DNA from: a virus
DNA: 30,575 nt
IMG/VR virus record: IMGVR_UViG_3300049216_000581
Span: 1-30,575 of that record
Direction: 5' to 3' (one strand)
Shown: piece after piece, positions 1 through 30,575 of the stretch
How positions within the stretch are numbered: the stretch's first letter is position 1
Layout of the letters: every line of letters starts with the position of its first letter
The notes under the pieces: generated by a model
The model's input: the letters and a program-made list of their open reading frames with translations, nothing else
What the model was told of the DNA's origin: nothing
Database searches by the model: none
Made by a program: the position numbers and the translations under genes

Positions 1-636
1 TCATCGGGCCACCGTCACTTTCAAGTCGAAGCTCAGGTCGCCCTGGTAAGGCCCGGAAAACTCATGCACCGCGACGAAATCAGCCAGCGACATCCAGTCC
101 GTCTCGCTGCCGGTCAAGTAACCCCAGCTATAGAAACCATTGGTCGCGCATACCCCTGGCGATGAAGAAAAGGGCGGACTCGCAACCGCACCGGACGCGA
201 ACATGAACTGGCAGCTCCCGTCCTCCGCTTGCTGCATCGACAAAACAAAATTCGCAGCGATCGCCATGGTGGCTGTGCAGTATGGGCACGTGTCCGTGTT
301 CGTACCGTCGAGGACGACGGCGGGTGCGATCAGAAAGCCCGCAGCATCGTTGTAGAACGTCAGCTGCGGGCAGCCGGCCGGACCGCAACACGCACCCTGC
401 GCCCAGAACGTGCCCGGCGCCGGTACCGGATAGGGATTGTCCTCAGTCGGCAGGATCGCCTTCGCCCGCGTCCAGGTGTAGCTCCCGCCGCCGCTCGACG
501 TGCAATCTTCGTAGGATCCGCCCAGCGTAATTTCCAGCGTCACCGACGTGAAACCCGGATCGATATCGGCCGCATTCTGGCACGGGCCCGGCGGCGTCAT
601 CACGCCCACGTTGGGATTGAGACGCAGCCGGCTCAC
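1..636 (-). CDS. Cysteine-rich tail-distal protein, function unknown
   Basis: 211-residue protein of unrecognised family. It starts with GTG, which overlaps the stop of the preceding minus-strand gene as GTGA, so the two are translationally coupled. It is unusually rich in Cys (a CC pair near residue 83 and a CPYC motif near residue 117), Gly, Ser, Thr and aromatic residues. No signal peptide or membrane segment is visible. It is the last of three genes after the tape measure, the usual place for distal tail, baseplate-hub or adhesin-type proteins. The role is inferred only from position. The stop codon is the first three bases of the window, so further tail genes may lie beyond. Confidence 0.75.
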   Translation of the reverse strand: MSRLRLNPNVGVMTPPGPCQNAADIDPGFTSVTLEITLGGSYEDCTSSGGGSYTWTRAKAILPTEDNPYPVPAPGTFWAQGACCGPAGCPQLTFYNDAAGFLIAPAVVLDGTNTDTCPYCTATMAIAANFVLSMQQAEDGSCQFMFASGAVASPPFSSSPGVCATNGFYSWGYLTGSETDWMSLADFVAVHEFSGPYQGDLSFDLKVTVAR

Positions 637-1256
637 ACGCTGTTCAGGTAGACGTTAGGCGCGCATTGCGAGTACCAGAGGTTCCCGCTGATGAAATCGT
701 TGAGGCACTGCACCGAGGCCTTCCCGCCCGTCACCGTCGCGACCAGCGTCGACAAACCGACGTAGTCCGTCCCGCCGGTACCCGTCACGACGGATCCATT
801 GACCGAGGCGGGGATCGAGCCGCCCGTGTTGATCAACACCGTCGTCGGCACGTTCGACGAGCTGTAGGTCACCTCGAACCAGCAATAGGTCGTGCCCGTT
901 CCGACCTCGAGCGTCGGCCACGCCAGGGGCGAGCCGATCTGCACGTTGATCGCGTTCCCGCCCAGCGTCGGGATGATCGTCCCGTTGAACGCCCCCGGCG
1001 TCACGCTGATCCTCGGCGTCGCGCCGCTCGAGGCGTCATAGACCCACAACGCACCCTGCGTGGCCGGCTGAATTGCCAGCGGCCATTGCCAGCGCGGGCG
1101 ATGGATCGGCCGCCTTGTCGATCCGCCGGCGCCGACGGTTGAATAAGTGCCCGGCGCGGATCGCGGCGCCGTCGATTTGAGGTACCGGAGGATACCGGCT
1201 GTGTCAGAAGCGCGAACGGGCTGCCCGCGCAGCGGCTCACCCGGCAGACCAATCAT
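633..1256 (-). CDS. Probable minor tail protein, unknown family
   Basis: 207-residue protein, ATG start overlapping the upstream stop as ATGA. The first 60 residues are Arg- and Pro-rich. The rest is Gly/Thr/Ser/Val-rich with alternating hydrophobic residues, the look of a beta-structured virion protein. No known domain was recognised. Its place between the 317-residue post-tape-measure protein and the Cys-rich protein suggests a tail tip or fibre-associated role, by position only. Confidence 0.7.
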   Translation of the reverse strand: MIGLPGEPLRGQPVRASDTAGILRYLKSTAPRSAPGTYSTVGAGGSTRRPIHRPRWQWPLAIQPATQGALWVYDASSGATPRISVTPGAFNGTIIPTLGGNAINVQIGSPLAWPTLEVGTGTTYCWFEVTYSSSNVPTTVLINTGGSIPASVNGSVVTGTGGTDYVGLSTLVATVTGGKASVQCLNDFISGNLWYSQCAPNVYLNSV

Positions 1257-2206
1257 AACGGGCCCGACCCCGCGCTAAGATCGATCGGGCCAAAGAGGGT
1301 TGGATCCGCCGCCACGCTGGACGGATCGCCTCCATAAATATCGGCATCGATGCGCTCAGCCCCCTGCCATTCCAGCTGCAGGCGATATTTGCCATAAGGC
1401 CCCGTGCGAGTGATGCGCTGCGCGCTCCGCTGCCACGTATAGCCCGATGGCGGATTGGCCGCGTGCGGCGGCTGCTCGATGAGGCCGCAAGGGTTGGCCG
1501 TCGGCGCCGTGTCAGTCTCGCTGGTTTGCCGGATCACCGGAGCATAGAGCCGGTAAGACTCTTCGCCCTTTAGCCGCTTCGTCGCGTAATCCTGGGCATT
1601 CGCGCTGAGCTCATAGAGCACATAACTGACGCCCGCGATGAGGGTCGGGCTCGTGACCGATTGGCCGGCGATCGTAGTGGTCGTCGGGCTGTTGGGATCA
1701 GCCCCGATTGGCACTGCGCTGCCGAGGCCGGTATTGTTGGTCGGATCGTAAACTACCTTGAAAACGAAGATCTGCTTCAGTAGGTAATTTTCTTCGGCCT
1801 CCCATTTCTCGATCATCGCCTTGTCGAGCAGCGTCAACGGCTTCGCCCCGGCCGGGGTGAGGTCGGGTGTCGAGCCATCCCAGTAGCGCGGATTGAGAAT
1901 AAGCGCTTTATCCACCTCCACCCATTCTGTTTCAAAAGTGGTCTCGGCCGCCGTCTCCATAATGACCGTGAGACGCCCCTTGTCTCCGGGCATTTTTTCG
2001 AGATCATAATCGGCGACGGTAACTGTGCCAGGGAGATCGCTGAACGCCTGTCCGAGCGTCGGCACGCCCGATTGCGCCTGCGCAAAAGTCCCCTCGTAAA
2101 TACGCGTGATCGAGGACTTGGTTAGGTCGCTATGGACTCTTGGCGAATTGGGCGTTTCAGTCAGTCCGAAGAGGCCGATCACCTGGGGAAAGTTGGGTGC
2201 GCTCAT
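1253..2206 (-). CDS. Post-tape-measure tail protein, unknown family
   Basis: 317-residue protein directly downstream of the tape measure gene (4 bases between). In siphovirus-like transposable phages this position holds distal-tail or hub proteins. The sequence is mixed alpha/beta with many Trp, Tyr and Pro residues and no signal peptide or membrane helix. ATG start without a purine-rich ribosome site, like most structural genes here. I do not recognise a domain, and the tail assignment rests on order alone. Confidence 0.75.
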   Translation of the reverse strand: MSAPNFPQVIGLFGLTETPNSPRVHSDLTKSSITRIYEGTFAQAQSGVPTLGQAFSDLPGTVTVADYDLEKMPGDKGRLTVIMETAAETTFETEWVEVDKALILNPRYWDGSTPDLTPAGAKPLTLLDKAMIEKWEAEENYLLKQIFVFKVVYDPTNNTGLGSAVPIGADPNSPTTTTIAGQSVTSPTLIAGVSYVLYELSANAQDYATKRLKGEESYRLYAPVIRQTSETDTAPTANPCGLIEQPPHAANPPSGYTWQRSAQRITRTGPYGKYRLQLEWQGAERIDADIYGGDPSSVAADPTLFGPIDLSAGSGPL

Positions 2207-2210
2207 AAAA

Positions 2211-4664
2211 TCAGGCGTAGGTGGCCACGGGCGGCCGCGTTTGGCTGAGGTTCATCATCCGCCACAGATATTTGGCCGTGTCCTCCGTCGCCTTGGCCGT
2301 GCGCTTTAGCTCGCTCAATCCCGCGGCCGCCGGCGACCCGCCCACAAAGAGACCTATCTTCGCCAGTCGATCCGCATCGGGCATCTTGTAGTTGAGCGAG
2401 TTCGCCGCCGGCGCGAGATTGTTGCCCTTTGGTTGAGGTGTTGACGGTGCGGATGACGGAGGGATTAGGCTCTGTATTCTGGCCCGTAACTGACCTTCAA
2501 CATTTTGAAGCGCGCCCGTGAAGAATCCGGAGTTCTTGATTAAATCGATGCCTTTTTGCATGCCCTCCTGCCAGGCATCCGAGGTTGGCTTTGCCTTGAG
2601 CTCGGCATTCCTGGCATCGAGCTCGGCCGATTGCCCCAGCTGCCCTGAGGTCTGATTGTACCAGGTAGCCTGCGAGGGATGCGCCGCGATCCAGTCGCTC
2701 ATCGACATGTTGCTGGCGTCGGTATATTTGTTGGCTTCATCGCGCGCGACGGCACCCTGATTTCTCGCTATTGCCGCATTCTGTAAATGCTGGTTGGCCT
2801 CGTTGCGCCAATCGTCGGCTATTTTTTTATTTGGCTCTCTCGAAGCGGCTTCGTTCAGCGCCTTAGCGCGGCCCTCTTCTGTTTTCGCCGTGGCATATTG
2901 TTGAGCGGCGTTCGACTGCGCGGACGTGGCATTATCAGCCGACTGTTTTCTCGCAAGCAGGTAATCCATCGACCCTTGAATCTGCGAGATGATCGGGCCA
3001 ATGGCCGTAAGCAGGGTCGCGCCGAAAGCCTCGGCCAGGGACTTGAAACCCGAGCCGAGCGCGGACCAGAAATCTTTGTTGAAAACCGTCTGGAACGCGG
3101 CCGCCAATCCTCCGACCGTTCCGGCGAGCAGCTCGGTGAAATGCTCGACGACTTTGATCACGCCGGCGTCGAGGCTGAGAAAGAGGATCTCGCCGAGCTT
3201 ACCCTCGGCGAAGCCTTCCGAAAGTGTATAGATGACATCTCCGACCGACTTAGCCCACCCGGAAAAATCGACCTCATTGACCAGGTCGAGCAGCTTTTGC
3301 ACGGCCGGGACCAGGCCGACCGCGATCCTGGCAAAGACCAAGTTGACCTGCTCGCCGAAGAGATAAAACTTCCGCTCGATCTCCTCAAAAGCGCCCGCAT
3401 TCTGACCCATGATGCGGGAGTACTCCTCGCCCTCCTTCAGCGCCTGGGCAAAGTCGGCCGGATCAGCGTTAAGGATTGCCTGCACTTCCAGCGCCCCTCG
3501 ACCGAAGATCTGCATCGCCGCTGCGGACCGGGTTGCCTGGTCGGGCAGCTTCTGCAGCCCCGCCGCCATCGCCGCAAACTGATGCGCTGCGTCCATCTTC
3601 TTAAGCTCTGTGATCGAAAGGCCGAGGCGGCCGAAAACGGCGCCGGTGGCATTGCCCTCCTCGCTCACGCCGCCCAGGGCGCGCTGCAGCATAAAGATCG
3701 TGTGGCCAACCTCATCGGCCGGCACGTCGAAATATTCAAAGGTGCGCCTCATCAGCGCGATCGACTCGGCCGTCTCGCCGGTCTGCCGCGAGAGGGCGTT
3801 AAGCTCGTCGCCATATTCAAATTGCGAGCGCATTTTTTCAACCGCCGCGCCGACGGATCCGACAACGGTGACGAAAGCCGCCAGCTCGGGCACCGCTAGC
3901 AAAGCCGATTTGACGGCGTCTCCCGCGGTCCGGGCCGCGGCGCCGGCCACGGTCAGCGCCTCGGTCAGCTGCTTGGCCGCAGCCGCTGCCGTACGGCCGC
4001 TGTTGGCCACGGCGTTTTCTGACTTGGCCATCTCCACTCCCTCCGTCGCCGCTTTCTGTTGTGCCGGCACCAGGCGATTGACCGCACCGACCAGCTTGTC
4101 GAGATCGGCCGTCTCCTCCTTCAGCTCGCGTTCTTCACCCGAAGTACCCTTGGCCACGGCCGAGGCTTCCCGCGAATAGGCCGCGCCGCTGGTAAAGCGG
4201 CCATGCTCGTCGCGCGCTGGTCCGCCCGATCCGGGCGCGGAGGCCTCATCCAGCGCGCCCCCGGCGCCGATGGCGCTGGAAGCCACCTGGCCGATCGAGG
4301 ACGCCGCGGAATTGGCTTCCGCGGTAATCCGGGCCAATCGGCTCGCCAACGTCGCCATGGCCGTCTGGGGCGCATTTCCAGCCACCCCTGAAAGCGCCTG
4401 GGCAGTCTTCGATAGCGCTGTTGCGGCCGGAGCGTTGGCGGCGGTGAGTTGCCCGGTGGTCTTGTGCAGCTGCTCCATGAAGCGCTGCGTTTGCTGCGTC
4501 TGGACCGTCAGCGGACGCAGCGTCTTGAGCAGGTTCTGGAATGCGACGTCCTGCTTTTTGACGACGAGCTCGATCTGCTGGGCGACCAGCTTGGCTTTGT
4601 CGTTGGTCTGCAGGTACTGCGACGCATCGAGCGTCATCTTGGCTTCGAAAACGGGTGCGCTCAT
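2211..4664 (-). CDS. Tail length tape measure protein
   Basis: 817 residues, the longest gene in the window, placed right after the tail-chaperone genes as in almost all long-tailed phages. The N-terminal third is Ala/Gln/Glu-rich and helical. The middle holds a TMP-like block (region containing LNALSRQTGETAES and FGRGALEVQAIL), followed by hydrophobic stretches of the kind expected to reach the host membrane, then a charged Ala/Gln/Asn-rich helical stretch. At roughly 1.5 angstrom per residue the tail would be about 120 nm (family rule of thumb, not measured). The ATG lies 7 bases after the stop of the frameshift extension, with no Shine-Dalgarno site. Confidence 0.9.
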   Translation of the reverse strand: MSAPVFEAKMTLDASQYLQTNDKAKLVAQQIELVVKKQDVAFQNLLKTLRPLTVQTQQTQRFMEQLHKTTGQLTAANAPAATALSKTAQALSGVAGNAPQTAMATLASRLARITAEANSAASSIGQVASSAIGAGGALDEASAPGSGGPARDEHGRFTSGAAYSREASAVAKGTSGEERELKEETADLDKLVGAVNRLVPAQQKAATEGVEMAKSENAVANSGRTAAAAAKQLTEALTVAGAAARTAGDAVKSALLAVPELAAFVTVVGSVGAAVEKMRSQFEYGDELNALSRQTGETAESIALMRRTFEYFDVPADEVGHTIFMLQRALGGVSEEGNATGAVFGRLGLSITELKKMDAAHQFAAMAAGLQKLPDQATRSAAAMQIFGRGALEVQAILNADPADFAQALKEGEEYSRIMGQNAGAFEEIERKFYLFGEQVNLVFARIAVGLVPAVQKLLDLVNEVDFSGWAKSVGDVIYTLSEGFAEGKLGEILFLSLDAGVIKVVEHFTELLAGTVGGLAAAFQTVFNKDFWSALGSGFKSLAEAFGATLLTAIGPIISQIQGSMDYLLARKQSADNATSAQSNAAQQYATAKTEEGRAKALNEAASREPNKKIADDWRNEANQHLQNAAIARNQGAVARDEANKYTDASNMSMSDWIAAHPSQATWYNQTSGQLGQSAELDARNAELKAKPTSDAWQEGMQKGIDLIKNSGFFTGALQNVEGQLRARIQSLIPPSSAPSTPQPKGNNLAPAANSLNYKMPDADRLAKIGLFVGGSPAAAGLSELKRTAKATEDTAKYLWRMMNLSQTRPPVATYA

Positions 4665-4671
4665 GGTCGTT

Positions 4672-4866
4672 TTAGAGGGCGTCTCGTTCGATGTAGTTGG
4701 GCTCGGCCCAGGTGTAACCGTGGCGCAGGGCGATCACTGTCCGGAGGGCCAGCGCCTCGGCCATCGGCACGCGCCGCACCTCAGCTCGCGTCCAGCCATA
4801 CTCTGAACAAAAGGTATCGATCAACGTCAGGACCCAGCCGGCTCCGTTGCCGAAGAGGTCTCGTCC
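4672..4866 (-). CDS. Tail chaperone extension made by -1 frameshift
   Basis: 64-residue extension in the -1 frame relative to the chaperone gene. It has no good start of its own: in the overlapping part its frame is only a shadow. After the slip site it becomes protein-like, with a Trp-containing helical domain that includes the sequence SEYGWTRAEV. The fusion would be 167 residues of zero frame plus 64 residues, 231 in total. It ends at TAA just before the tape measure ATG. This matches the conserved G/GT-type arrangement known for dsDNA phage tail genes. The exact fusion point is inferred. Confidence 0.75.
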   Translation of the reverse strand, partial: GRDLFGNGAGWVLTLIDTFCSEYGWTRAEVRRVPMAEALALRTVIALRHGYTWAEPNYIERDAL

Positions 4867-5366
4867 AAAGGGGAACCACCGCCTTCCTGGTTGGGCGGAT
4901 TCAGCTTGGCCGCGGCGGCGAAGGGCCGCGTGACCGCTTCGGTGATGGTCTTGGTCGCAGCGATGAACTCGGTCATGTCCAGGGAGGAGGCGAACTTGGC
5001 GCAAGCCTCGCGGAAGATCCGCGGGTCACCCGCGAGCAGCTTCTCGATCTCTTCGTCGGGCGTGATCAGGGCGAAGAGGACCTGGATGACATCGCGGAAG
5101 GTCGGCGTCGCGCCCTTGCCGTTGACGAAAGGCGAGTCGAGCTCGAGCAGATTGAGGTGCGTCTGGACCGTGTAGGTGTGAAGCACGAGCTCCGCGAGCT
5201 TGATCGTCTTCGGCGAGAGCGCCTCGCGCACGACCGCCGGCGTCGTGCTGGCCGCCTCGGTGAGCTCTTTTTCCAGCTCAGCGAGCTTGGCGAGATCGGT
5301 GCCCTGTTTCAGCGGCGCCGTCTCGGGAGACGGCGCTTCCAGCTTGGTTGGTTCCTGGGGAGTCAT
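4827..5366 (-). CDS. Tail assembly chaperone, zero-frame product
   Basis: 179-residue acidic protein between the tail tube and tape measure genes, the place of the lambda G or Mu gp41-type tail assembly chaperone. The N-terminus is Pro/Glu/Lys-rich. The middle is helical, and the last 20 residues are Gly/Ser/Glu-rich linker-like sequence. A -1 slippery heptamer near the 3' end (4866-4872) would let some ribosomes enter the overlapping frame and add a second domain. The short form is expected to be the more abundant, as known for this class. The assignment rests on position, composition and the frameshift arrangement. Confidence 0.85.
   Translation of the reverse strand: MTPQEPTKLEAPSPETAPLKQGTDLAKLAELEKELTEAASTTPAVVREALSPKTIKLAELVLHTYTVQTHLNLLELDSPFVNGKGATPTFRDVIQVLFALITPDEEIEKLLAGDPRIFREACAKFASSLDMTEFIAATKTITEAVTRPFAAAAKLNPPNQEGGGSPLDETSSATEPAGS
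4866..4872 (-). promoter_or_regulatory. Slippery heptamer C CCT TTG for -1 frameshift
   Basis: On the minus strand the zero-frame codons CCT TTG are preceded by C, giving the X XXY YYZ form. Re-pairing gives CCC and TTT. The -1 frame is open from here to a TAA next to the tape measure start. A modest hairpin (CGGC, 6-base loop, GCCG at 4839-4852) begins 13 bases downstream, rather far for a stimulator. Confidence 0.7.
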
Positions 5367-5372
5367 CGCGTT

Positions 5373-5732
5373 TTACGAGGTGACCAGATTGACGTAGTTG
5401 GAGCAGGTGAAGGACCACTTGGCGGTGTTGCGCCATTCCCATTCCTTCTTGATCGTCTTGACGATGAAGGTGGCCACGCCCGCGAAGGTGACGATCGTGC
5501 CGCGGGTGGGGATGGTGTCGGTCGTCTGCATGATCATCTCCGCGCTCCCCTCGTCCTTGTCGTCGAAAAGAATGTCGCCGATCGTGAAACCGTTCCCGTC
5601 GTAGATGAAGACTTCTTCACCGTTACGCTCGATCGACATGCGGGTGCAGATGCCGGTATAAGCGACACCGGCAATGCCCCAGGTGACGTTGGCGATTCCT
5701 GTTCCGAGGAGTTGAGCAGTTTGAGCGGACAT
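5373..5732 (-). CDS. Probable tail tube protein
   Basis: 119-residue protein with a beta-rich composition and many Gly, Thr, Ile and Val residues. Its size and place (directly before the tail chaperone and tape measure) match phage tail tube subunits; Mu gp40, for example, is about this size. No longer sheath-like gene precedes it, so the tube is probably that of a non-contractile tail. The start ATG follows the stop of the preceding gene by 3 bases and has no purine-rich ribosome site. Family assignment is by position and size. Confidence 0.65.
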   Translation of the reverse strand: MSAQTAQLLGTGIANVTWGIAGVAYTGICTRMSIERNGEEVFIYDGNGFTIGDILFDDKDEGSAEMIMQTTDTIPTRGTIVTFAGVATFIVKTIKKEWEWRNTAKWSFTCSNYVNLVTS

Positions 5733-5735
5733 AGT

Positions 5736-6233
5736 TTAGAGTTGGGTTGGTTGTTGGGGTTGGGCCGGCAAAGCGCGCAGGCCGAAAGTGAGCTTGTAGG
5801 CGGCGAGCGGAAAACCTTCGGGCGTGACCAGTGTCTCGGCGCCATCGTATTCGAGGATCCCGCCGGTCGGTTCGCTGGGAAATTGCAGGCCGAGAACGGT
5901 TGCGCGGACCGCGTCAACCTGGGAGAGAATCGGCGGCCGCGCGCCGACGGCTTGGATCAGCGCAAGGTCGGGCTTGGCGGTGAGACCGAGATTGCTGCCA
6001 AAAATGATTTCGATCTTGTGGCGAATCAGGGGGACGTAAGCATCGGCGACATTGGAGTCGCCCGCCCAATGGAGGATCAAGCGATAACCGACCGGGTTGG
6101 CGGCAAGCAGCTCGAAAACATTGAACGGATCCATGGCGATCGAGACCGTTCCGCCGCCGAGGCCCTGGGCGAACGCCTCAAGCGCGGCTTTAATCTGGGT
6201 CAGGATATGATCAATGGTCAGCGCGGGGTTCAT
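5736..6233 (-). CDS. Probable tail terminator / gp37-like protein
   Basis: 165-residue protein. The start ATG overlaps the stop of the gp36-like gene as ATGA. It lies between the head-tail connector and the tail tube, where Mu-type phages carry a gp37/DUF1834-like protein and lambda-type phages a tail terminator. The N-terminus (about residues 5-30) is helical, and the remainder is mixed alpha/beta with no membrane segment. I cannot confirm the family from motifs, so the name is a positional inference. Confidence 0.55.
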   Translation of the reverse strand: MNPALTIDHILTQIKAALEAFAQGLGGGTVSIAMDPFNVFELLAANPVGYRLILHWAGDSNVADAYVPLIRHKIEIIFGSNLGLTAKPDLALIQAVGARPPILSQVDAVRATVLGLQFPSEPTGGILEYDGAETLVTPEGFPLAAYKLTFGLRALPAQPQQPTQL

Positions 6234-6670
6234 ATGACGGTCGCGCCTCCCCCGCGGGGAACCGACCGGATCGGCTCCGTGACGACCGAAGCGCTCGGAT
6301 CCTGGCGCTGCAGGGTGGGATTGAGCGGCAGCTTGCCCTCGGCGATGAGATCGAGCTGGGCCCGCACGGCGTCGGCCTGTTTGGCCCAGGGATTTTTCCC
6401 ATCGGCGATCTGGCGCCGGGCGAAAAGCTTCTCCGCGGCAAGGGTGCGCGCGGCGTGGGCGATCACGGCCGGATAGTTGCCGTTGCCGTCGGGCTGGATC
6501 GGCACCGAGTAACGCACGCCGATCTTGGCGTCGATCGCGTCGCTTACCTGCTGGGCGATGGTCGCCCAGAGATCCATGTCCGCGTTGCCCGTATTGTCGT
6601 CATCGAGGGCCTGCGTAATGAACGCCGGCGGGAGGTCGGCGGGCAGGTCGCTGAATTGGACATAGGGCAT
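6230..6670 (-). CDS. Head-tail connector, gp36-like (DUF1320)
   Basis: 146-residue protein resembling the DUF1320/Mu gp36 family. It has an N-terminal segment with helices, a central motif with DAKIGVRYSVP followed by a cluster around AHAARTLAAEKLFARR, and a short basic, Gly-rich tail. Family members act at the head-tail junction. Its position directly after the major capsid gene agrees. The 28-base gap from the capsid stop shows no clear ribosome site. Confidence 0.75.
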   Translation of the reverse strand: MPYVQFSDLPADLPPAFITQALDDDNTGNADMDLWATIAQQVSDAIDAKIGVRYSVPIQPDGNGNYPAVIAHAARTLAAEKLFARRQIADGKNPWAKQADAVRAQLDLIAEGKLPLNPTLQRQDPSASVVTEPIRSVPRGGGATVI

Positions 6671-21449: not shown

Positions 21450-21457
21450 CAACAAAA

Positions 21458-22638: not shown

Positions 22639-22662
22639 CTGACCACTACGCCCGCTCCTTGT

Positions 22663-22683
22663 CCTGCCTGATTCGACGGCAGG
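22663..22683 (+). terminator. Weak hairpin after repressor operon
   Basis: Perfect 6-base stem CCTGCC/GGCAGG with a 9-base loop, 24 bases after the secreted-protein stop, but with no T-run behind it. Could be a Rho-type or partial terminator separating lysogenic from lysis genes. Confidence 0.3.
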
Positions 22684-23328: not shown

Positions 23329-23335
23329 AATCACC

Positions 23336-24004
23336 ATGGACAACGCCAAACCCTTCTACCTCTCGCTCACCATCGTGGGCGCCCTCATCCATCTTTTCAT
23401 TACCCTCGCCGCGCTCTTCGGCGTGGACCTGGGCGACCAGGCCGGCGCGATCTCCAAGACCATCGAGCAATGCACGCTCGCCGGCGCCAGCCTGCTCGCC
23501 ACCTTTTCGACGATTGTCGGCCGCATCCGCGCCAGCAAGTCGATCACCCTGAGGCCCCCGCCGACGTCGGTCAATATGCTACTGGTCCTGGCAGCCGTGT
23601 TGTCGGTGGGGGTACTCTCGGCCTGCGCGCGGACAAATACGAGCTCGAATCCTCCGCCCGCGGCCGCGACTGTTACCAATTCATCCCCGGCGTCGTCCTC
23701 GGTCACGTCGTCGCAACTGGCCAACGTTGGTTGGACCGTTGCGAATTATCTCCAAACCCTAAACAACGGCACGACCATTCCTACCGTCGATCAGGCGCTC
23801 GCCGCGACCCATAACTCGGGCGATATCGCCACGGTCAACCTCGTCGCTGCGTTGGTTGGTCAGGTCGCCTCGGCGGTAGTCGCTGCGCACAACGCCGGCG
23901 CCAGCACCACCCAGACGCAGGCCGTCGTCAACACCGTTCTCGCCCCTGCAGCTGTCGCGCAGGTCGCCTCCAACGTCGCCGCCACCACGCCCAGCTCCAA
24001 TTAA
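23336..24004 (+). CDS. Holin-like protein fused to lipoprotein-like domain
   Basis: 222 residues from ATG 23336-23338. The N-terminus has a strong transmembrane helix (8-28) and a second hydrophobic segment (about 46-62) with a basic end, as in small holins. Residues 81-97 then look like a lipoprotein signal with lipobox L94-S-A-C97, followed by a Ser/Thr/Asn-rich spacer and an Ala/Val-rich helical domain. An in-frame ATG at 23576-23578 starts just before the second part, so a 142-residue lipoprotein may be made separately. Its own ribosome site is not obvious. Confidence 0.65.
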   Translation: MDNAKPFYLSLTIVGALIHLFITLAALFGVDLGDQAGAISKTIEQCTLAGASLLATFSTIVGRIRASKSITLRPPPTSVNMLLVLAAVLSVGVLSACARTNTSSNPPPAAATVTNSSPASSSVTSSQLANVGWTVANYLQTLNNGTTIPTVDQALAATHNSGDIATVNLVAALVGQVASAVVAAHNAGASTTQTQAVVNTVLAPAAVAQVASNVAATTPSSN

Positions 24005-24025
24005 GGAAAGTCACCAAGGACCACC

Positions 24026-24235
24026 ATGACCGTCGCCATTCTCGGGCTCATCGGTTCCGCTCTCACGGCGGCCGCCGGCGTCTGGAAGCTTTTTAGCGCA
24101 GACCAGGCGGCCGCCAACACGCCCGAGATGCAGCAGGCCGCGAAGGCTCAGCAGCAGGTCGATTTCGAAGCGAAGGCCACCGCAGCTCACGCCAAGGGAG
24201 ATCTCACCACCATCCGTGATCTGGAGTCGGAATGA
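24026..24235 (+). CDS. Small helical lysis-region protein
   Basis: 69 residues. Hydrophobic N-terminal helix (VAILGLIGSALTAAAGVWKLF), then a charged Ala/Gln helix. The ATG follows AAGGA by a few bases. Resembles small membrane-associated lysis proteins. The stop overlaps the following lipoprotein gene as ATGA. Confidence 0.6.
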   Translation: MTVAILGLIGSALTAAAGVWKLFSADQAAANTPEMQQAAKAQQQVDFEAKATAAHAKGDLTTIRDLESE

Positions 24236-24636
24236 AGAAACACATTCTCAGATTTCTGGATGTCTTTGCCATAGCAGGTGGCATTTCCATGTACGCGTGG
24301 AGCGTGCTTTCCCTCTCGGGTTGCGCCACGCAGATCTCACCACTTACGGAAAGCAGCTCCCCGAGCTATGACGGCAACGACCTCAACTCCGGCGTCATCG
24401 CCCTTGTGCCCGGCGGCCAACTCGTCACCCCGCATTGGCGCGATCGCTACAATGGCATGATCGCCGCCTACGGCTCGCGCTTCACCCCGGCCCTGCAGGT
24501 CGACGACGGCATTGTCCCGGCCACCGCCCCCAACGCGCCCGTCGAGTACTTCATCGACGACGAGCACGCCGTCAAATTCGACCAGATGAACGAATGGCGC
24601 AAGGCCGACGCCAAGACCACCACCGTCGCGAAATGA
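24232..24636 (+). CDS. Lipoprotein, possible outer-membrane spanin
   Basis: 134 residues. A basic start and a hydrophobic signal end in lipobox L28-S-G-C31. The mature part is Ser/Pro-rich, then folded (VDDGIVPATAPNAPVEYFID). Located in the lysis cassette, it could be the outer-membrane partner of a spanin pair, though longer than usual o-spanins. ATGA overlaps on both sides. Confidence 0.6.
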   Translation: MKKHILRFLDVFAIAGGISMYAWSVLSLSGCATQISPLTESSSPSYDGNDLNSGVIALVPGGQLVTPHWRDRYNGMIAAYGSRFTPALQVDDGIVPATAPNAPVEYFIDDEHAVKFDQMNEWRKADAKTTTVAK

Positions 24637-24983
24637 AACTCCTCTCCTTCTTTCTCTTTCTCTTTTTTGTCCTCGCGGCCGACCAGGCCCGCGCGCTCCT
24701 GGTCACCGCCACGAGCTATTCCTGGCGAGAGCCTCAGCATCGCCACTTCGGCCGGCTCAACGCCGAGGGCGGAGTACTCGACGACACCCAGGTCGCCGCC
24801 GACTGGCGCTATTACCACCCCGGCACCGTCATGTGGATCCAGGGCCTCGGCTTTCGCACCGTCACCGACCGCGGCAGCGCCATCTGTGGGCCCCGCCATA
24901 TCGATGTCCATTTTTGTTCCCTGGCGGCGATGCGCGCCTGGGGCACCCGAACCGTTCGCATCCGCATCCTGAGTCGCGCATGA
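24633..24983 (+). CDS. Secreted 3D-domain cell-wall enzyme-like protein
   Basis: 116 residues from ATG 24633-24635 (ATGA overlap); an earlier in-frame start is a shadow. A signal peptide is followed by a mature part with the 3D (three-Asp) pattern: AADWRYYHPGT (D57), VTDRGSAICG (D79) and RHIDVHF (D91), as in MltA/YocH-type double-psi barrel enzymes that cut peptidoglycan glycan strands. A lysis role alongside the M15 endopeptidase is likely. Confidence 0.75.
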   Translation: MKLLSFFLFLFFVLAADQARALLVTATSYSWREPQHRHFGRLNAEGGVLDDTQVAADWRYYHPGTVMWIQGLGFRTVTDRGSAICGPRHIDVHFCSLAAMRAWGTRTVRIRILSRA

Positions 24984-25735
24984 AATACGCCAACGAACCA
25001 CCCCCGCTTCTTGCCGCCGAGGCCCTCCGCCTCGAAGCCGTCACCACCTGCGTCGGCTTCGACGACGTCCTCGATGTCACTCTCGCCCTCAACCATCCGC
25101 ACCTGGACACGATGATCGTCGTCACCAGCCACGCCGATCGCGCCACCCAGCTCGTCGCCAAAAAGCACGGCGCCATCCTCGTCGTCAGCGATCTCTTCGC
25201 CAAGAACGGACGCAACTTCAACAAGGGCGCTGCGATCAACGATGGCATGGCCCGTTTCCAGTATCACGGCTGGCGCCTGCATCTCGACTCCGACATCATC
25301 CTGCCCGACAACTTCCGCAGGCTCCTTTTCAATCACACCCATCTCGAGCCCTCCTGCATCTATGGCGCGGATCGCATCGATGTCGTCGGCCGGGCCGAAC
25401 TGAAGACCCTCCGCGAGCGCCTCGCGATCAGCCCGCAGGCCGCCTGGGGCTTCCTCGTCGATCCCTCCCACAACCGGCCGATCGGTTGCCGGTACGTCGA
25501 CATGCTTCGCGGCTATGTGCCGATTGGCTATTTCCAGCTCTGGAATGCGGGCGCCCAAAAGGATTATCCATTTTCCCTCGGCACCGCCGCGCATGACGAC
25601 GTCCTCTTCGCCTGCCAGTGGCCCCGCGGCCAGCGTCGAGTACTCCCCACCGCTGTCTGCTATCACCTCTGCCAGCAGCCGCCGAAAATGGGCGAGAACT
25701 GGGACGGCAACCGCAAACACCCGAGGTTCAAATGA
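24980..25735 (+). CDS. Glycosyltransferase-like (GT-A) protein
   Basis: 251 residues from ATG 24980-24982 (ATGA overlap with the 3D-domain gene). An N-terminal Rossmann-like nucleotide-binding half leads to WRLHLDSDIILP, where D103-S-D105 is a DxD-type metal/UDP-sugar site. A later HDD segment and an aromatic C-terminal part fit a GT-2/GT-A fold. No membrane helix is visible. A sugar transferase inside a lysis cassette is unusual; it may modify envelope polymer, phage DNA or a virion protein. Substrate unknown. Confidence 0.65.
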   Translation: MKYANEPPPLLAAEALRLEAVTTCVGFDDVLDVTLALNHPHLDTMIVVTSHADRATQLVAKKHGAILVVSDLFAKNGRNFNKGAAINDGMARFQYHGWRLHLDSDIILPDNFRRLLFNHTHLEPSCIYGADRIDVVGRAELKTLRERLAISPQAAWGFLVDPSHNRPIGCRYVDMLRGYVPIGYFQLWNAGAQKDYPFSLGTAAHDDVLFACQWPRGQRRVLPTAVCYHLCQQPPKMGENWDGNRKHPRFK

Positions 25736-25929
25736 ACCCGGGCGCTGCGGCCGTACTTTTCGTCTATCTGCTCTGCGGCTGGATCGTCACCTGCTGGGTG
25801 CTCGCTCACGCTTACCTGAATGACGAATTTTACGACGACGAAATCGATTGGATGGGGCGAGTTTTCATCACGTTGCTCATGTTCATTCTCTGGCCGGCTG
25901 TCTTTTTCATTCCCAAGGAGGAACGATGA
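25732..25929 (+). CDS. Small two-helix membrane protein
   Basis: 65 residues from ATG 25732-25734 (ATGA overlap). Two hydrophobic segments (AAVLFVYLLCGWIVTCWVL, then VFITLLMFILWPAVFFI) separated by an acidic loop (NDEFYDDEIDW). Possible holin or antiholin. The stop overlaps the next gene. Confidence 0.65.
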   Translation: MNPGAAAVLFVYLLCGWIVTCWVLAHAYLNDEFYDDEIDWMGRVFITLLMFILWPAVFFIPKEER

Positions 25930-26048
25930 AAGACCGCTATATCCTCTACGTCTGCTTCACCGCCATCGCGATCACCCTGATCGTCGAGGGCTCCAAGTTC
26001 GTCGCCCTTTTTATCCTCCTCCACGCGGGCGGCGTGCCCGCGCAATAA
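25926..26048 (+). CDS. 40-residue single-helix membrane protein
   Basis: From ATG 25926-25928 (ATGA overlap) to TAA 26046-26048. One hydrophobic helix (ILYVCFTAIAITLIV plus ALFILLH). Directly before the endopeptidase gene. Likely a lysis accessory. Confidence 0.6.
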   Translation: MKDRYILYVCFTAIAITLIVEGSKFVALFILLHAGGVPAQ

Positions 26049-26049
26049 T

Positions 26050-26553
26050 ATGGACCAGCGTTCCCTCACCAACATCGCCGGCCTCATCCCGGCCGCCCAG
26101 GAAAAGGCCAAGGCCTTTTACGATGCGATCTATGCGTCCAACCGCCTTCCCCGCGGCTGGTATATCTCCATCATCTCCGGTCTGCGCAGTTACGAGGAGC
26201 AGGAGGTTCTTTACCAGGAGGGCCGCACGACCCCGGGCAAGATCGTCACCGATGCGCCGCCCGGCTATTCCAATCACAATTTCGGCACCGCTTTCGATAT
26301 CGGCATCTTCAACCTCGACGGCCAGTATATCGACGATCTCCCCGATCGCGGCCTCATGACGGAAGCCCAGGTCTCCTCCTATTACCGGATGCTGGCCCCG
26401 ATCGGAAAATCCCTCGGCCTCGAGTGGGGCGGCGACTGGGAATCGATCGACGACGAGCCCCATTATGAGCTCATCCTCTGGCCCGAGCTCACCGAGGACC
26501 AGCGCCTGGCCAAGCTTCGCGGCCTCCACGACCAGGGACAACCGATCGCCTAA
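26050..26553 (+). CDS. M15-family peptidoglycan endopeptidase (endolysin)
   Basis: 167 residues, no signal peptide. VanY/M15-type zinc peptidase motifs: SGLRSYEEQEVLY (R46), SNHNFGTAFDIGIF with H76 and D83, and a later GLEWGGDW...PHYEL with H138, typical of L-alanyl-D-glutamate or related peptidases. Its place after small membrane proteins is that of the endolysin, released by a holin. ATG one base after the previous stop. Confidence 0.88.
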   Translation: MDQRSLTNIAGLIPAAQEKAKAFYDAIYASNRLPRGWYISIISGLRSYEEQEVLYQEGRTTPGKIVTDAPPGYSNHNFGTAFDIGIFNLDGQYIDDLPDRGLMTEAQVSSYYRMLAPIGKSLGLEWGGDWESIDDEPHYELILWPELTEDQRLAKLRGLHDQGQPIA

Positions 26554-26565
26554 CATGGCCCCACC

Positions 26566-27201
26566 ATGCCTGACCAGCGCGCACGCCAAGGAAAAATTGC
26601 CCGGCTACCGGTTGCCATTCGCAACGAGGTAAATCGTCGCCTTTTCGAGAATGAGCCCGGAGCCAAGATCGTCGCGTGGCTCAACACTCAGGACGACGTC
26701 CTCAAAATCCTCGATGAATTTTTTTGTTCAATCCCGGTCAGTCCGCAGAACTTGAGCGAGTGGCGCCAGGGCGGCTACCAGGATTGGCTCCGCCGCCAGG
26801 AGCGCGTTGAGAACCTCAAGGACCTATCCCAGCTCGCCCTCAAGCTGGCCGAGGCCTCTGGTGGCGGAAACATCTCGGACGGCAGCGCCGCCGTGGCCGG
26901 CGGCCGCATCATGGAGATCCTCGAGAACGCCGCCGACAAGGACCTCGACGGCATCATCAAAAACCTCACTCTTCTCCGGCTCGGCGATGCGGAAAAGGAG
27001 AAGATCGAGATCCGCCGGCAGACCCTGAAGCAGCGCGGCGAAGTCATCGATCTCATGCGCAAAAAATTCCAACGCCAGACCGCCGAGCTCTTTCTCAAAT
27101 GGTACGACGACAAGAAGGTCAAGGAGACCGTCGAGTCCCGCGGCAGCAACGCCGAGAAGATCGAGGAGCTCGGCAAGCACATCTTCGGGGAGGACTGGTA
27201 A
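26566..27201 (+). CDS. Small terminase subunit, Mu gp27-like (DUF3486)
   Basis: 211 residues. Family block near the start: KIARLPVAIRNEVNRRLFE (10-28), then helices and a C-terminal segment ending in GKHIFGEDW, as in gp27/DUF3486. It recognises phage DNA for packaging. TAA overlaps the next ATG (TAATG). Confidence 0.88.
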   Translation: MPDQRARQGKIARLPVAIRNEVNRRLFENEPGAKIVAWLNTQDDVLKILDEFFCSIPVSPQNLSEWRQGGYQDWLRRQERVENLKDLSQLALKLAEASGGGNISDGSAAVAGGRIMEILENAADKDLDGIIKNLTLLRLGDAEKEKIEIRRQTLKQRGEVIDLMRKKFQRQTAELFLKWYDDKKVKETVESRGSNAEKIEELGKHIFGEDW

Positions 27202-27371
27202 TGATTTACATCACTATGGGTTCAGATCCGAAAACGGGCGTTAAAGGCTATCAGATCGGAATGGACGAGGCGGCCTTCAAGGAACTCGCTAAATCAGGCA
27301 AGCAAGCCGGCACCTGCAACTGCATCCATTCGGATTGTCGAAAAGAACGGGAAGGCGGTGCCTCGTGCTGA
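27201..27371 (+). CDS. Small Cys-containing protein between terminase genes
   Basis: 56 residues. N-terminal beta-like segment, then a helix and a Cys cluster (CNCIHSDC plus a C-terminal Cys) that may bind zinc. TAATG overlap with TerS, and its stop overlaps the TerL start region. Unknown family; terminase accessory by position. Confidence 0.55.
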   Translation: MIYITMGSDPKTGVKGYQIGMDEAAFKELAKSGKQAGTCNCIHSDCRKEREGGASC

Positions 27372-28957
27372 GGCCCCTCGCTTACGAACGCGAGCCGATC
27401 CGCCAGGATGACGCCGGCCGCATGTTCCTGTTGTGGCGGCGCCAGGGTCACAAGACCACCACCCTCGCCAAAAAGGCCCTCCGCTTCATGATGAAAAAGC
27501 GCGGCGGCCTGGTCACCTTCGCGTCCGCGTCACTCCTCGTCGGCAGCGAACTGATCGTCCGCGAAGGCCAGGTCATCGAGTCGGCCCGCGAGAAGGTCAT
27601 CAAGGACGCCGCCGTGCTCAAGGCCACCTTCGACGAGGTCCGCAAGGAAGCCGCCACGGCGCAGATGGATTTCAAGAGCAACGGCGATGGCCTCAAGGCG
27701 GAGGATTTCACCGATCTCTTCGAGCAGCAAAAGCTCGAGGCCCGGATCTGGCATTCGAAGACCGTTTTCTCCCGCACCATCATCATCGCGCCCAACCCGG
27801 CCACCGCCCGCAGCTGGTCCGGCTGCGTCTTCATCGACGAGGCCGGCCACGTCGCCAAGCTCGCCGATCTCCTCGAGGCCATGGAGCCCATCATGTCGAG
27901 CGATCCCGGGTTCCGCCTCCTCATGGCCGGCACCCCGCCGAACGACGAGGCCCATTTCAGCTACGAGTTGACGCTTCCCCCGGAGGGCACGACGTTTTCG
28001 CCCGACCCGAAGGGTCACTGGTATACCAGCCAGGCCGGACTCCTCGTCCACCGCGTTGACTCCTGGGACGCGGCCGCCGCAGGCCTCAAGACCTTCGACC
28101 TCGACACCCGCGAGGAAGTCACCCCCGAGCAGCACCGCGCCAAGGCCTTCGACCGCGATGCCTGGGACCGCAACTACGGGCTTATCTTCAAGCATGGCGG
28201 CACCAACGCCATCTCCCTCATGCTGGTCAACCACGCCATGGTCTCCGGCCGGGATGAGTGCGTCTTCTGCGAGGACGATCTCAATCTCGACTGGCGCAAG
28301 AATCTCGGCAACGGCCGCATCGCCGTTGGCTACGATATCGCCACCACCGAAAAGAAGACGAGCAACCCCGGCTCGCTCGCCGTCGTCGAGCAGCTCGGCA
28401 ACCGCTTTTTCGCCCGGCTCATCCTCGTCTTCAAGACTGCCGATCCCGAGAAGGCCCGGTCCTTCATCAAGGAGGTCCTCGATCTCCGAGGCAACCGCCG
28501 CGCGCGCCGGCTCTGCATCGATGCCACCAACGAGCGCTTCTTTGCCACGGAGATCAAAAAGGAGCTCATCGGCCAGGTCATTTGCGAGCTCGTCATCGCC
28601 AGCGAAAAAACCGTCTACGGCGGCGAGGAGCTGCTCTACAAGACCTACCTCGGCCAGCTGCTCGTCAACCAGATGGAGGACGGATTACTCGCGTTGCCTG
28701 AGGCGCGGTACGTGAAAGATGACTTCCGCCTGGTCCGCAAGGAAAAGGGCGGCTTCGAAACCGACATCGACAACCAGGGCCGTCACGGCGACACCTTCGA
28801 TTCCGTCAAGCTCGCCCTCCATGGCCTCATGTCCCGCGGTGGTCCGGTCGCGGCCGAGGCCGTATCCGTTGGCGGGATCGGCGCGCCCGTGGCCCGGGGA
28901 AAATGGAAAAACCCATTTCTGAAAATGATCGATCGGAGGCCCAAGCTCTATGTCTAA
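27365..28957 (+). CDS. Large terminase, Mu gp28-like
   Basis: 530 residues from GTG 27365-27367; an upstream ATT in frame is less likely. ATPase: Walker A RRQGHKTTT (25-33), Walker B CVFIDEA (154-160), coupling motif LLMAGTPP (186-192). Nuclease: D324 in VGYDIATT, D386 in RLCIDATNE, and D476/D479 in RHGDTFDS. It packages DNA into the head. The stop overlaps the portal ATG. Confidence 0.93.
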   Translation: MLRPLAYEREPIRQDDAGRMFLLWRRQGHKTTTLAKKALRFMMKKRGGLVTFASASLLVGSELIVREGQVIESAREKVIKDAAVLKATFDEVRKEAATAQMDFKSNGDGLKAEDFTDLFEQQKLEARIWHSKTVFSRTIIIAPNPATARSWSGCVFIDEAGHVAKLADLLEAMEPIMSSDPGFRLLMAGTPPNDEAHFSYELTLPPEGTTFSPDPKGHWYTSQAGLLVHRVDSWDAAAAGLKTFDLDTREEVTPEQHRAKAFDRDAWDRNYGLIFKHGGTNAISLMLVNHAMVSGRDECVFCEDDLNLDWRKNLGNGRIAVGYDIATTEKKTSNPGSLAVVEQLGNRFFARLILVFKTADPEKARSFIKEVLDLRGNRRARRLCIDATNERFFATEIKKELIGQVICELVIASEKTVYGGEELLYKTYLGQLLVNQMEDGLLALPEARYVKDDFRLVRKEKGGFETDIDNQGRHGDTFDSVKLALHGLMSRGGPVAAEAVSVGGIGAPVARGKWKNPFLKMIDRRPKLYV

Positions 28958-30575
28958 ACCATCTCAACCCATTCGCGACGCTCTTTCCAAATTCGCCCAG
29001 TGGCTCATTCCCACCACCAGCCGCAAAGCCTTTTACAACTGGCGTGCCAGCGAGCCCAGCTTCGAAACCTCCTACCTCGACGTCGATCGGCTGCGCAATT
29101 TGCTTCTCAGCGCCGAGACCGGCAACGTCCGCGATCTCTTCGGCGTCTACCGCGACGTCCTCATTGTCGATAGCCATATCCAGGCCGAGTTCAACAAGCG
29201 GAAGCTCGCCCTCCTGGGCGACACGCTCTCCATCCAGCCGTTCCAAAAAGGGAACAACGATGACCTCAAGGCCGCCGATTTCATCAAGAGCCAGTTCCTC
29301 GATTTCGACGGCCGACTCACCGCCTGCAATCATCTCCTGGATAGCATTCTCTGGCCCCTCTCGCTCGTGGAGAAGGTCTACAAGCCCAGCTCGACCAAGG
29401 GCGTACGGTATGATCTCGCCGCGCTCAATACCGTCCAGGCCAACGATCTCGATTTCACCACCGGCTGGCTTCGTCTTCGCCGCCTCGACCAGCATGGCGG
29501 CTACCTCACCGGTGACCTCGAGGACCCGGATCCCAACCGTTACATCATCCACCGCGGCCATCTTCTCAACCACGCTGATTTCTGGGGCGGTCCTTTTCGT
29601 TGCATCCTCTATTGGTGGCTGCTCCGCACCATGAGCCGCGACTGGTGGGCCCGCTTCCTCGAGCGTTACGGCTCGCCCTTCATCGTCGGCAAATACGATC
29701 AGTCCGATGATGAGTCCCGCGCCATTCTGAGCAACGCTTTCTCGGCCGCCTCCAAAATCTTTGGTCTGGTCATCAGCCGTGAGACCGAGGTCGAGCTCAT
29801 CGAATCCGCGGCCGCTCAGACCGGCGAGGCATTCCGCCTCTTCATGCACGAGGCGTGCAACGATGAGATCTCACGCTTCATCGTCGGCCAGACCGCCAGC
29901 TCCAACATGCATTCCACCGGCCTCGGTTCCGGCGTCAGCAAGCAGCACGAGAACGTGCGCCAGGACATCCGGCAGTTCGACTCCATGCTCCTCGGTAACA
30001 CGCTTCGCCAGCAGCTCTTCCGACCCCTTTTGCTCATCAACGGCTTTGCCGGCCGTCCGCCCAAGGCGATCTGGGGCGGTCTCTCACCCGACGACCAGGA
30101 ATCGATGGGCCAACTCCTGGCCAACCTCGCCCAGGCGAACCTCGAGCCGACCGACGAGGGCGTCGATGCTCTCTCCGAGCAATTCGGAATCCCGCTGCAA
30201 CGCAAGGCGCCCCCGGTGCCGGCCTTCGATCCAGGCGGTGGCCCGGGTTTTCAGGAGCCCGGGGGCCTGCCGCTGGCCGCCCGGGCGCTCCCGCCCCAGG
30301 TCGCGGCTTCCCTCCGGGCAATCGACCAGATCGCGGCAACGGCCGCCCCTGATCTCGCGCGGGCTTTCCGCGACGAGCTCGCGGAGATCCCGCGGATCGT
30401 CCGCGATAGTACCTCGCCGGCAGATTGCGAACGCCGGCTGGCCCATTTCTTCGCCACCTACCGGCCCGGCCGATCCGCCCAGGTCCTCGAGCCCAGCATC
30501 CTGAGCGCCGCCGCCAACGGTGCCGTCTCGCGGTCCGGTCAATCTCTCCAACCCCTTTCCTGTGCGGCGGCCTAG
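28950..30575 (+). CDS. Portal protein, Mu gp29-like (DUF935)
   Basis: 541 residues. DUF935 pattern: NVRDLFGVYRDVLIVDSHIQ near 50-70, LSLVEKVYKP near 131-140, DWWARFLERYGSPFIVGKY near 230-250, and a helical QLLANLAQANL segment. Forms the portal ring. The TAG stop is the last codon of the window. MuF would normally follow; here it is on the other arm. Confidence 0.92.
   Translation: MSKPSQPIRDALSKFAQWLIPTTSRKAFYNWRASEPSFETSYLDVDRLRNLLLSAETGNVRDLFGVYRDVLIVDSHIQAEFNKRKLALLGDTLSIQPFQKGNNDDLKAADFIKSQFLDFDGRLTACNHLLDSILWPLSLVEKVYKPSSTKGVRYDLAALNTVQANDLDFTTGWLRLRRLDQHGGYLTGDLEDPDPNRYIIHRGHLLNHADFWGGPFRCILYWWLLRTMSRDWWARFLERYGSPFIVGKYDQSDDESRAILSNAFSAASKIFGLVISRETEVELIESAAAQTGEAFRLFMHEACNDEISRFIVGQTASSNMHSTGLGSGVSKQHENVRQDIRQFDSMLLGNTLRQQLFRPLLLINGFAGRPPKAIWGGLSPDDQESMGQLLANLAQANLEPTDEGVDALSEQFGIPLQRKAPPVPAFDPGGGPGFQEPGGLPLAARALPPQVAASLRAIDQIAATAAPDLARAFRDELAEIPRIVRDSTSPADCERRLAHFFATYRPGRSAQVLEPSILSAAANGAVSRSGQSLQPLSCAAA

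Follow-up and report, generated by a model that had tools for sequence, protein, structure and literature searches.

The stretch of DNA analysed here (the window) is the entire IMG/VR record IMGVR_UViG_3300049216_000581, 30,575 nt in length. It holds two arms of genes that run outward from a central regulatory region, and an S24 repressor on the plus strand and a Cro-like HTH protein on the minus strand both lie mid-window (Table 1). Open reading frames and profile matches confirmed the genes, strands and order proposed in a sequence-only reading of this DNA, which had placed a packaging block on the plus strand, MuF, head and tail genes on the minus strand, and a repressor between outward arms. 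The head set of transposable phages (Mu-type portal, MuF, gpG, protease and gpT) is all present, and a MuB-like AAA activator adjoins the DDE transposase. The collinear TerS-TerL-portal-MuF-head block, a trait of Mu-like phages, is not present in the window. TerL is a single open reading frame here and is in two pieces in many relatives. Bases 1 and 30575 both fall in stop codons of genes and the flanks are absent, so both phage tips are missing from the window; as the sequence-only reading had held, the phage's own ends lie beyond the record.

Table 1. Features of the window in order of position, with the evidence for each.
Feature	Position	Strand	Evidence or remark
Gp36 adaptor and tail genes	1-6670	-	Distal tail end lies beyond the record
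Tape measure	2211-4664	-	phrog_9483 2.1e-06
Gp36 adaptor	6230-6670	-	PF07030 3.3e-12
gpT major capsid protein	6699-7676	-	PF10124 1.1e-57
Head maturation protease	8632-9648	-	Mu-like_Pro PF10123 4.8e-24
Putative late-promoter element, protease copy	9685-9700	-	Starts 52 bp 5' of protease start
gpG / neck protein	9972-10427	-	phrog_26 5.6e-22
MuF minor head protein	10641-12386	-	phrog_220 3.1e-42; TIGR01641 1.5e-14
Two adjoining conserved genes 5' of MuF: 12936-13355 and winged-helix-like 13352-13672	12936-13672	-	Kept across lineage
Gam-like end-protection protein	15141-15401	-	phrog_491 2.7e-07
MuB-like AAA ATPase	16231-17370	-	AAA_22 2e-09; phrog_296 DNA transposition protein 1.1e-4
DDE-type MuA-like transposase	17719-19587	-	Family profile vs KS10 transposase 97.4%, 1.5e-11
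Cro/Ner-like HTH, opens transposition/head arm	21173-21397	-	HTH_26 2.8e-05
CI-like repressor with S24 peptidase domain	21320-22114	+	PF00717 1.4e-18; HTH_3 8e-11; central
Putative late-promoter element, lysis/packaging copy	22658-22673	+	Starts 51 bp 5' of start codon 22709
Lysis-region genes, taken as start of lysis/packaging block	22709-25929	+	Several ORFs kept in G002, G003, G007; mostly without assigned function
Endolysin, M15 peptidase	26050-26553	+	Peptidase_M15_4 PF13539 1.1e-12; phrog_2649 2e-28
TerS (terminase small subunit)	26566-27201	+	Weak: Phage_Mu_Gp27 0.044, phrog_426 0.012; directly 5' of TerL in relatives
TerL (terminase large subunit)	27371-28957	+	phrog_2 6e-14 on ORF 27335-28957; Terminase_6C 0.0036
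Portal protein	28950-30575	+	Portal_Mu PF06074 7.7e-62; phrog_113 1.9e-52; final packaging-arm gene, stop is the record's last base

The transposase was identified with a 21-sequence family profile compared by hhalign. Beyond the KS10 match given in Table 1, this profile matched the transposases of D3112 (90.8%) and Mu (MuA, 73.3%) and gave no match to that of B3 (2.7%). A six-sequence comparison against MuA, B3 and KS10 yielded nothing useful. Pfam returned HTH matches only, all below cut-offs, and NCBIfam an N-terminal IS630 match far under threshold (27 of 100 bits). Residues D179, E260 and E307 are kept in 21/21 sequences, the middle residue being E and not D. The fold prediction was poor (mean pLDDT 51.6) and was left out of the evidence.

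The sequence-only reading had proposed searching related prophages for the same gene order, and we found it. Packaging genes and head genes occupy separate arms in 16 of the 19 lineage records that have a portal plus a mapped head gene, the window included. Partial records fall outside this count (for example G010, G014, G233, G246, G251, G303 and G374), as does G006, the arms of which sit on two contigs. Portal and transposase are on opposite strands in four further partial records and share one strand in the fragment G435; the collinear exceptions within the lineage are G001, G017 and G020. Our trees omit G004, a 100% match to G006 C28 across 29,031 bp, and G008, a 100% match to part of G009. 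In principle the split might stem from chimerism in the assembly or from an inversion confined to a single clone, and the record does stop exactly at gene ends, without flanks. We rule this explanation out, with next to no probability left to it, because the same order recurs across those 16 records, five of which are lysogens in bacterial contigs (G059, G114, G300, G442 and G454), and because the relative G007 is split as well, although its transposase is down to 35% identity with that of the window. The earlier suggestion of a distinct lineage of transposable phages is supported.

Outside the lineage, megablast of window positions 1-25000 against the phage collection gave no match, and neither did tblastn with the window's transposase and TerL. 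The portal matched 235 and gpT 213 records of that collection, all at <60% identity, and among the matches listed, which are a sample only, portal and gpT lie on the same strand in 13/13 accessions common to both sets. None of the titles and abstract openings listed described a Verrucomicrobiota phage lineage of this kind. A degraded prophage region of Verrucomicrobia that encodes a TerL and two Mu-like proteins is mentioned in one paper, in passages that give no gene order (PMC6920513).

The question of phage ends and target duplications, also raised in the sequence-only reading, was resolved in a relative and not on the window itself. G454 is a complete prophage of 36,336 bp inside an 81.8 kb bacterial contig. 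Its ends read TGTAACC...GTCACA with GTGA on either side, and after excision in silico the joined flanks form an open amine oxidase frame with an ungapped alignment across the junction. G454 therefore has TG...CA ends and a short target duplication, GTGA, of 4 bp, with 5 bp possible. Since its ends lie beyond the portal and beyond the tail, the window represents most of one phage with the tips absent. In G006 a target duplication, ACAC, is supported across two contigs, and the portal-side end GGTCTCA is common to G003, G006, G007, G009, G010 and G233. The ends of G011, G018 and G114 deviate from TG...CA, and CCCG (up to CCCGAC) is common to both of the less canonical ends of G114. No convincing matching target duplication was found at the motif-bearing ends of the virus records G007, G011 and G018, nor in G059 and G300, and a search for the portal-side end of G442 did not find it.

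Upstream of both arms of the window lies a short repeated element, its two copies being exactly the same 16-mer; 0/100 shuffles yielded two matches at <=3 mismatches. We looked for such elements in 15 of the 16 split records, G013 being excluded as it is without a protease. The 160 bp 5' of the protease has an element in common with the packaging arm in 10/15 records, and the same test on regions 5' of nine other genes found a packaging-arm element in 4/115. The match in G005 proved to be the coding sequence of a gpG paralogue and was removed, which leaves a phage-specific element on both arms in 9/15 records, namely the window and eight others. The sequence of the element varies from phage to phage. 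A third copy, at the distal tail, was found in five of seven phages searched, the other two records ending before that place; this copy is exact in G002, G007 and G442 and has 2 mismatches in G114 and 5 of 24 in G011. These five phages have lysis, protease and distal-tail copies, some with mismatches, and the window has the first two, its distal tail being missing from the record. Protease copies start 48-78 bp upstream in 6/7 phages and 119 bp upstream in G442, and lysis-arm copies start 51-142 bp 5' of the first mapped gene in the 5/7 phages where that gene was mapped. The protease element stands downstream of MuF and gpG, to which no late promoter is assigned in the window.

The element was not found in four split records, namely G012, G016, G300 and the most clearly delimited prophage, G454; a 15-mer in G454 is common to protease and tail only (2/40 shuffles). 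G018 is borderline, having passed one element test and failed the other. Applied to Mu, the test missed the known C-dependent sites (14/200 shuffles reach the score). It gave no signal on KS10, and D3112 (1/200 shuffles) and B3 (0/200) scored low.

The sequence-only reading took the two arms to imply separate late control, with different factors serving packaging and capsid genes. Their position on opposite strands around a central regulatory region fits that idea, as do the four split records in which the element was not found. We disfavour it without regarding it as disproved, and consider it quite unlikely, because the same cis element stands ahead of both arms in the window and eight other split records. 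The shared element suggests instead that the two late halves are switched on together.

The repeat could also be a cis site of another kind: an RNA leader, a site of recombination or inversion, or one for packaging or gyrase. The two arms carry their copies in mutually inverted orientation, and the collinear relative G006, in which the packaging block lies 3' of the tail, shows inversion of one segment. The breakpoints in G006, however, seem to fall at the L end and at the rep/lysis junction and not at two element copies. In addition, copies follow the direction of the downstream genes in seven phages, at limited distances, and are seldom found 5' of the nine other genes. We therefore judge a non-promoter role improbable, if somewhat less so than separate control. 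G006 itself has element copies 5' of the protease and 5' of the distal tail, and none upstream of its lysis genes even when 8 of 33 mismatches are allowed; not every packaging block, therefore, has a copy to itself.

Taken together, the explanation that we find probable as a whole is that the window covers most of a single temperate transposable phage, whose lineage occurs in Verrucomicrobiota genomes and in which a putative shared late-promoter element coordinates the packaging and capsid arms on a Mu-like plan. A central repressor/Cro switch divides the two arms. One runs from Cro through transposase, MuB, Gam and regulators to MuF, head and tail, and the other from lysis genes through TerS and TerL to the portal, stopping near the phage end. 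By homology, both arms would be off through the repressor in lysogeny. Upon induction the transposition arm would be read first, and a mid-arm regulator, perhaps encoded by one of the two conserved genes 5' of MuF, which are candidate late regulators, would then activate the late promoters. A single phage-specific set of putative promoters would precede the lysis genes, the protease and the distal tail genes. With its own promoter copy, the packaging block could occupy the opposite arm and strand while staying coordinated with the capsid genes.

The three places of the element appear to correspond to Plys, PI and PP of Mu, a phage in which one activator, C, serves the lys, I, P and mom late promoters (PMC4461284). 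A Mor/C late activator (PF08765) was found in 0/10 lineage records tested, some of them fragments. Comparison of the element among phages also raises a more specific idea, which we regard as possible but somewhat short of probable: the elements, near-identical within a phage and different between phages, may be recognised by an activator that is peculiar to the lineage, evolves fast and takes the place of Mor/C, and each late operon would need no more than a copy of its own or a location downstream of another. If this is true, operons could move and flip while remaining coordinated, which would account for the stability of the two-armed layout and also for G006, the collinear derivative, with its packaging block behind the distal-tail copy. 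The lineage also shows that split arms can be what most members of a varied group have, and that inversion of a large segment can occur among them. The order of genes is therefore, by itself, an unreliable indicator of late control in transposable phages.

The layout is not new. KS10 (2008; PMC2628397) and the TG1 prophages of Leptospira (2021; PMC8705779) already separate a terminase-portal block from other head or structural genes. KS10 (NC_011216) resembles the window in its central repressor/HTH pair, with lysis, TerS, TerL and portal together on one arm and one strand, and transposase, MuB, then protease, capsid and tail on the other. It differs in keeping MuF beside the portal on the packaging arm and in having a Mor gene and a sheathed tail. 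Inheritance of the split from a common ancestor with KS10 would account for the shared plan, and the KS10 transposase is the best profile match among the four tested. The break point differs, however, and the MuF tree places KS10 outside the window's lineage, in a cluster with Mu, D3112 and B3 (100/100); in the portal tree the placement of KS10 and B3, both on long branches, is uncertain. We think common ancestry of the split rather unlikely and independent origin more probable. The KS10 authors could offer no more than a guess, a repressor, as to what coordinates the two head modules (PMC2628397). The present lineage offers a testable answer to that puzzle, in the form of one putative late-promoter element on both arms.

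The Leptospira TG1 prophages, compared by text description only, also hold TerS-TerL-portal apart from other structural genes, but have other hosts and sheathed tails; Leptospira transposable prophages are likewise described as without Mor/C (PMC8705779). B3 (NC_006548) has a central repressor and diverging arms, and its repressor arm runs lysis-TerS-TerL-portal; unlike in the window, MuF, head and tail continue after the portal on the same arm. The outward, two-way organisation noted in the sequence-only reading stands, and taken on its own it is the plan of B3 too. Mu (NC_000929) and D3112 (NC_005178) share the transposase, B, Gam, portal, MuF, gpG, protease and gpT families with the window, and differ in having a left-end repressor, one collinear late block and annotated Mor-type late activators; Mu late promoters precede lys, I (protease) and P (PMC4461284). 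As that reading had stated, TerS-TerL-portal-MuF-head is collinear on one strand in Mu, B3 and D3112, with one opposite-strand gene between TerS and TerL in D3112. We conclude that this is a known kind of layout in a new lineage.

The window, 30,575 bp long, spans an entire IMG/VR record classed as linear. It looks as if trimmed at gene borders: it opens with the three bases of a tail-region gene's stop codon and closes with those of the portal stop. Profile searches placed an endolysin, TerS (a weak match), TerL and the portal on the plus strand, and the transposase, MuB, a Gam-like protein, MuF, gpG, protease, gpT, Gp36 and tape measure on the minus strand, with an S24 repressor and a Cro-like HTH protein between the two arms. 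These results agree with the genes, strands and order in the sequence-only reading. In the same searches no sheath family matched the left-arm proteins scanned, so the tail is likely non-contractile. Cro and the transposase are separated by a ParB-N-like gene, and many relatives have a homologue at the same place.

Relatives (G handles; C, contigs; L, loci) were gathered from virus records by scans with the portal and the transposase and by alignments of each. A bacterial-genome scan added more. So did searches of genomes from the phylum and from the order to which the Spartobacteria genome G006 belongs, a genome that title and taxonomy assign to Verrucomicrobiota; these hit 10 of 387 genomes (E 1e-30) and 4 of 213 (E 1e-60), each time including G006. 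Some 30 relatives were found in all. When the window proteins were mapped onto these records, 19 had a portal together with one or more head genes. Of these, 16, window counted, showed the split between packaging and head genes, each with the transposase located between the two groups; the other three, G001, G017 and G020, were collinear. Portal and transposase were also on opposite strands in four partial records; this was not so in the fragment G435. Five split cases lie within bacterial contigs (G059, G114, G300, G442, G454). With this recurrence in relatives, prophages included, we reject an artefact as the source of the layout. The observed order is right, and so is the proposed distinct lineage.

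Several relatives carry local peculiarities, located in the table. Of 29 records with TerL, counted without G008 and the second G006 element, 16 have the gene divided into separate N- and C-terminal ORFs, and in G007 a further 69-aa ORF stands between the two. The window, G002 and G003 each encode TerL in one ORF. In G246 the portal and a TerL fragment directly adjoin an oppositely oriented tail gene, suggestive of a prophage with an internal deletion.

Coordinates of features in the window and in related records
Feature	Record	Position	Strand
CTTGTCCTGCCTGATT, lysis/packaging copy	window	22658-22673	+
CTTGTCCTGCCTGATT, protease copy	window	9700-9685	-
Gene taken as first of lysis/packaging block	window	22709	
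Transposase	window	17719-19587	-
ParB-N-like gene	window	20352-21176	
Winged-helix-like gene	window	13352-13672	
Its neighbour	window	12936-13355	
Two-piece TerL	G006 C19 (L037)	1544-3607	
Two-piece TerL	G007 (L034)	2066-3900	
Two-piece TerL	G005		
Two-piece TerL	G454		
Second, distant element; rep, TerL, portal all on one strand	G006 C28 (L041)	94.6-102 kb	
GGTTACA end	G006 C28	33,264	
Duplicated gpG and protease segments	G002	25400-27729	
Additional gpG homologue inside packaging arm	G005	6993-7469	
Portal and TerL fragment beside tail gene	G246 C55 (L078)		
Protease, with 60-base match upstream of it	D3112 (L120)	19918	

The window's own ends lie outside the record, and the proposed check for phage ends and a target duplication was answered by its relatives. 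In G003, G006, G007, G009, G010 and G233 the portal-side end has the sequence GGTCTCA, lies about 60-225 bp beyond the portal stop and follows repeats, among them ACCCTTTTC and TTTCAA; in G003 the piece after it was read by eye as host uvrA. The exact motif was absent from the portal-side ends of G011, G018 and G114. An extra gene follows the portal in G013, G014, G059 and G246; by eye it resembles a D12-class adenine methyltransferase, a candidate that recalls the DNA-modification genes at the right end of Mu. On the other side, beyond the tail genes, the end is ...GGTTACA or a similar sequence. Both ends are present in G454 (TGTAACC...GTCACA, 36,336 bp), with GTGA on either side; this target duplication is 4 bp, though it may be 5 because the next host base is identical to the phage's first base. 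With the G454 flanks joined, the reading frame is unbroken, and its match to copper amine oxidases continues over the junction. We therefore conclude that the split plan belongs to an entire transposable prophage integrated into host DNA. If the window phage is as large as G454, about 6 kb is missing at its tips. In the virus records G007, G011 and G018 the DNA at the two ends was non-matching, which might reflect virion DNA of a replicating transposable phage.

G006 is a collinear exception. On its contig C28 the repressor lies near the GGTTACA end, followed on one strand by cro, transposase, MuF, head, tail and lysis genes up to the contig edge; C19 starts with TerS, TerL and portal and then reaches the GGTCTCA end. 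ACAC is common to both flanks, suggesting a single insertion spread over C28 and C19, with the join absent from the assembly. One inversion of everything from the tail-side end to the lysis genes converts the window order into that of G006. In the transposase tree G006 fell inside split-type relatives, with G000, G002 and G003 (90/93 and 99/99), and the portal tree put it next to split-type G009 (100/99), so the G006 order is probably the derived one. The transposase tree likewise groups G017, whose order is canonical collinear, with split types, as the sister of G114 (100/99). Drawn from the midpoint, the trees do not fix which way the order changed across the whole lineage.

The sequence-only reading held that the split implies separate late control of packaging and capsid genes. 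When non-coding stretches of the window were compared, CTTGTCCTGCCTGATT occurred exactly twice. One copy starts 51 bp before the presumed first lysis/packaging gene and the other 52 bp ahead of the protease gene, and both point along transcription; two matches with at most three mismatches arose in 0 of 100 shuffles. Exact stretches of 16-24 bp link protease upstream and packaging arm in 5 of 16 records (G000, G007, G009, G011, G114; 0 of 60 shuffles each). With mismatches allowed, 11 of 15 split records scored above 100 shuffles. In a controlled rerun 10 of 15 exceeded 40 shuffles, versus 4 of 115 control upstream regions (MuF, gpG, gpT, decoration protein, Gp36, MuB, transposase, winged-helix-like gene, tape measure). 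We discounted the G005 match as a coding gpG paralogue, leaving nine records. Copies are near identical inside one phage and unlike between phages. A third copy lies in the distal tail region of G002, G007, G011 (5/24 mismatches), G114 and G442; the window and G009 records end before this place. G006 has copies before the protease and in the distal tail, and none was detected before its lysis genes; downstream of the distal-tail copy come its lysis and packaging genes, which share a strand over the stretch that the contigs cover.

Late promoters of Mu that depend on C precede lys, I, P and mom, according to the part of PMC4461284 consulted, and gene I is the protease in the Mu record. The lineage's copies precede lysis, protease and distal tail, a match in placement with lys, I and P that suggests they are putative late promoters. 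One set of predicted promoters on both arms would then serve packaging and capsid genes. Separate control of the two arms is the less likely reading given the nine split records that share the element, although four others, including the best-defined prophage G454, showed none common to protease and packaging arm. The method also missed the known late sites of Mu and found nothing in KS10. In D3112 a 60-base ungapped match joins the protease upstream and the lysis region (1 of 200 shuffles reached the score) and may be that phage's late promoter. MuF and gpG lie before the protease element and need another promoter or read-through. Mor/C was detected in 0 of 10 records tested; the winged-helix-like gene and its neighbour, conserved directly upstream of MuF, are our guess for a candidate activator.

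The window transposase had no good match in profile libraries. A profile of 21 relatives matched the transposases of KS10 (97.4%, 1.5e-11) and D3112 (90.8%) and MuA (73.3%), with no match to B3 (2.7%). D179, E260 and E307 occur in 21 of 21 family members. In hhalign E260 stands about at a KS10 aspartate (WERG versus LDRG), here taken as the middle catalytic residue, so that the triad may be D-E-E in place of D-D-E.

The layout itself is not new but of a known kind. Titles and abstract starts, with few subscription papers covered, described no such lineage; passages of PMC6920513 refer to a Verrucomicrobia prophage, degraded, that carries Mu-like proteins. As far as this search reaches, the novel points are the lineage with its breadth, a portal-MuF break documented together with inserted ends, the shared element, and G006 as a collinear derivative. 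In Burkholderia phage KS10 (2008) MuF, portal, TerL, TerS and lysis genes already shared one arm, with protease, capsid and tail genes placed on the opposite arm; in the sections consulted its authors called the arrangement unique, its reason and coordination not known to them (PMC2628397). The Leptospira prophages (2021) are another earlier case: in their group TG1 the TerS-TerL-portal block lies away from the other structural genes (PMC8705779). KS10 resembles the window in separating packaging from capsid genes, but its MuF is on the packaging arm rather than the head arm, whereas B3 shares the central repressor and diverging arms and keeps its late block intact.
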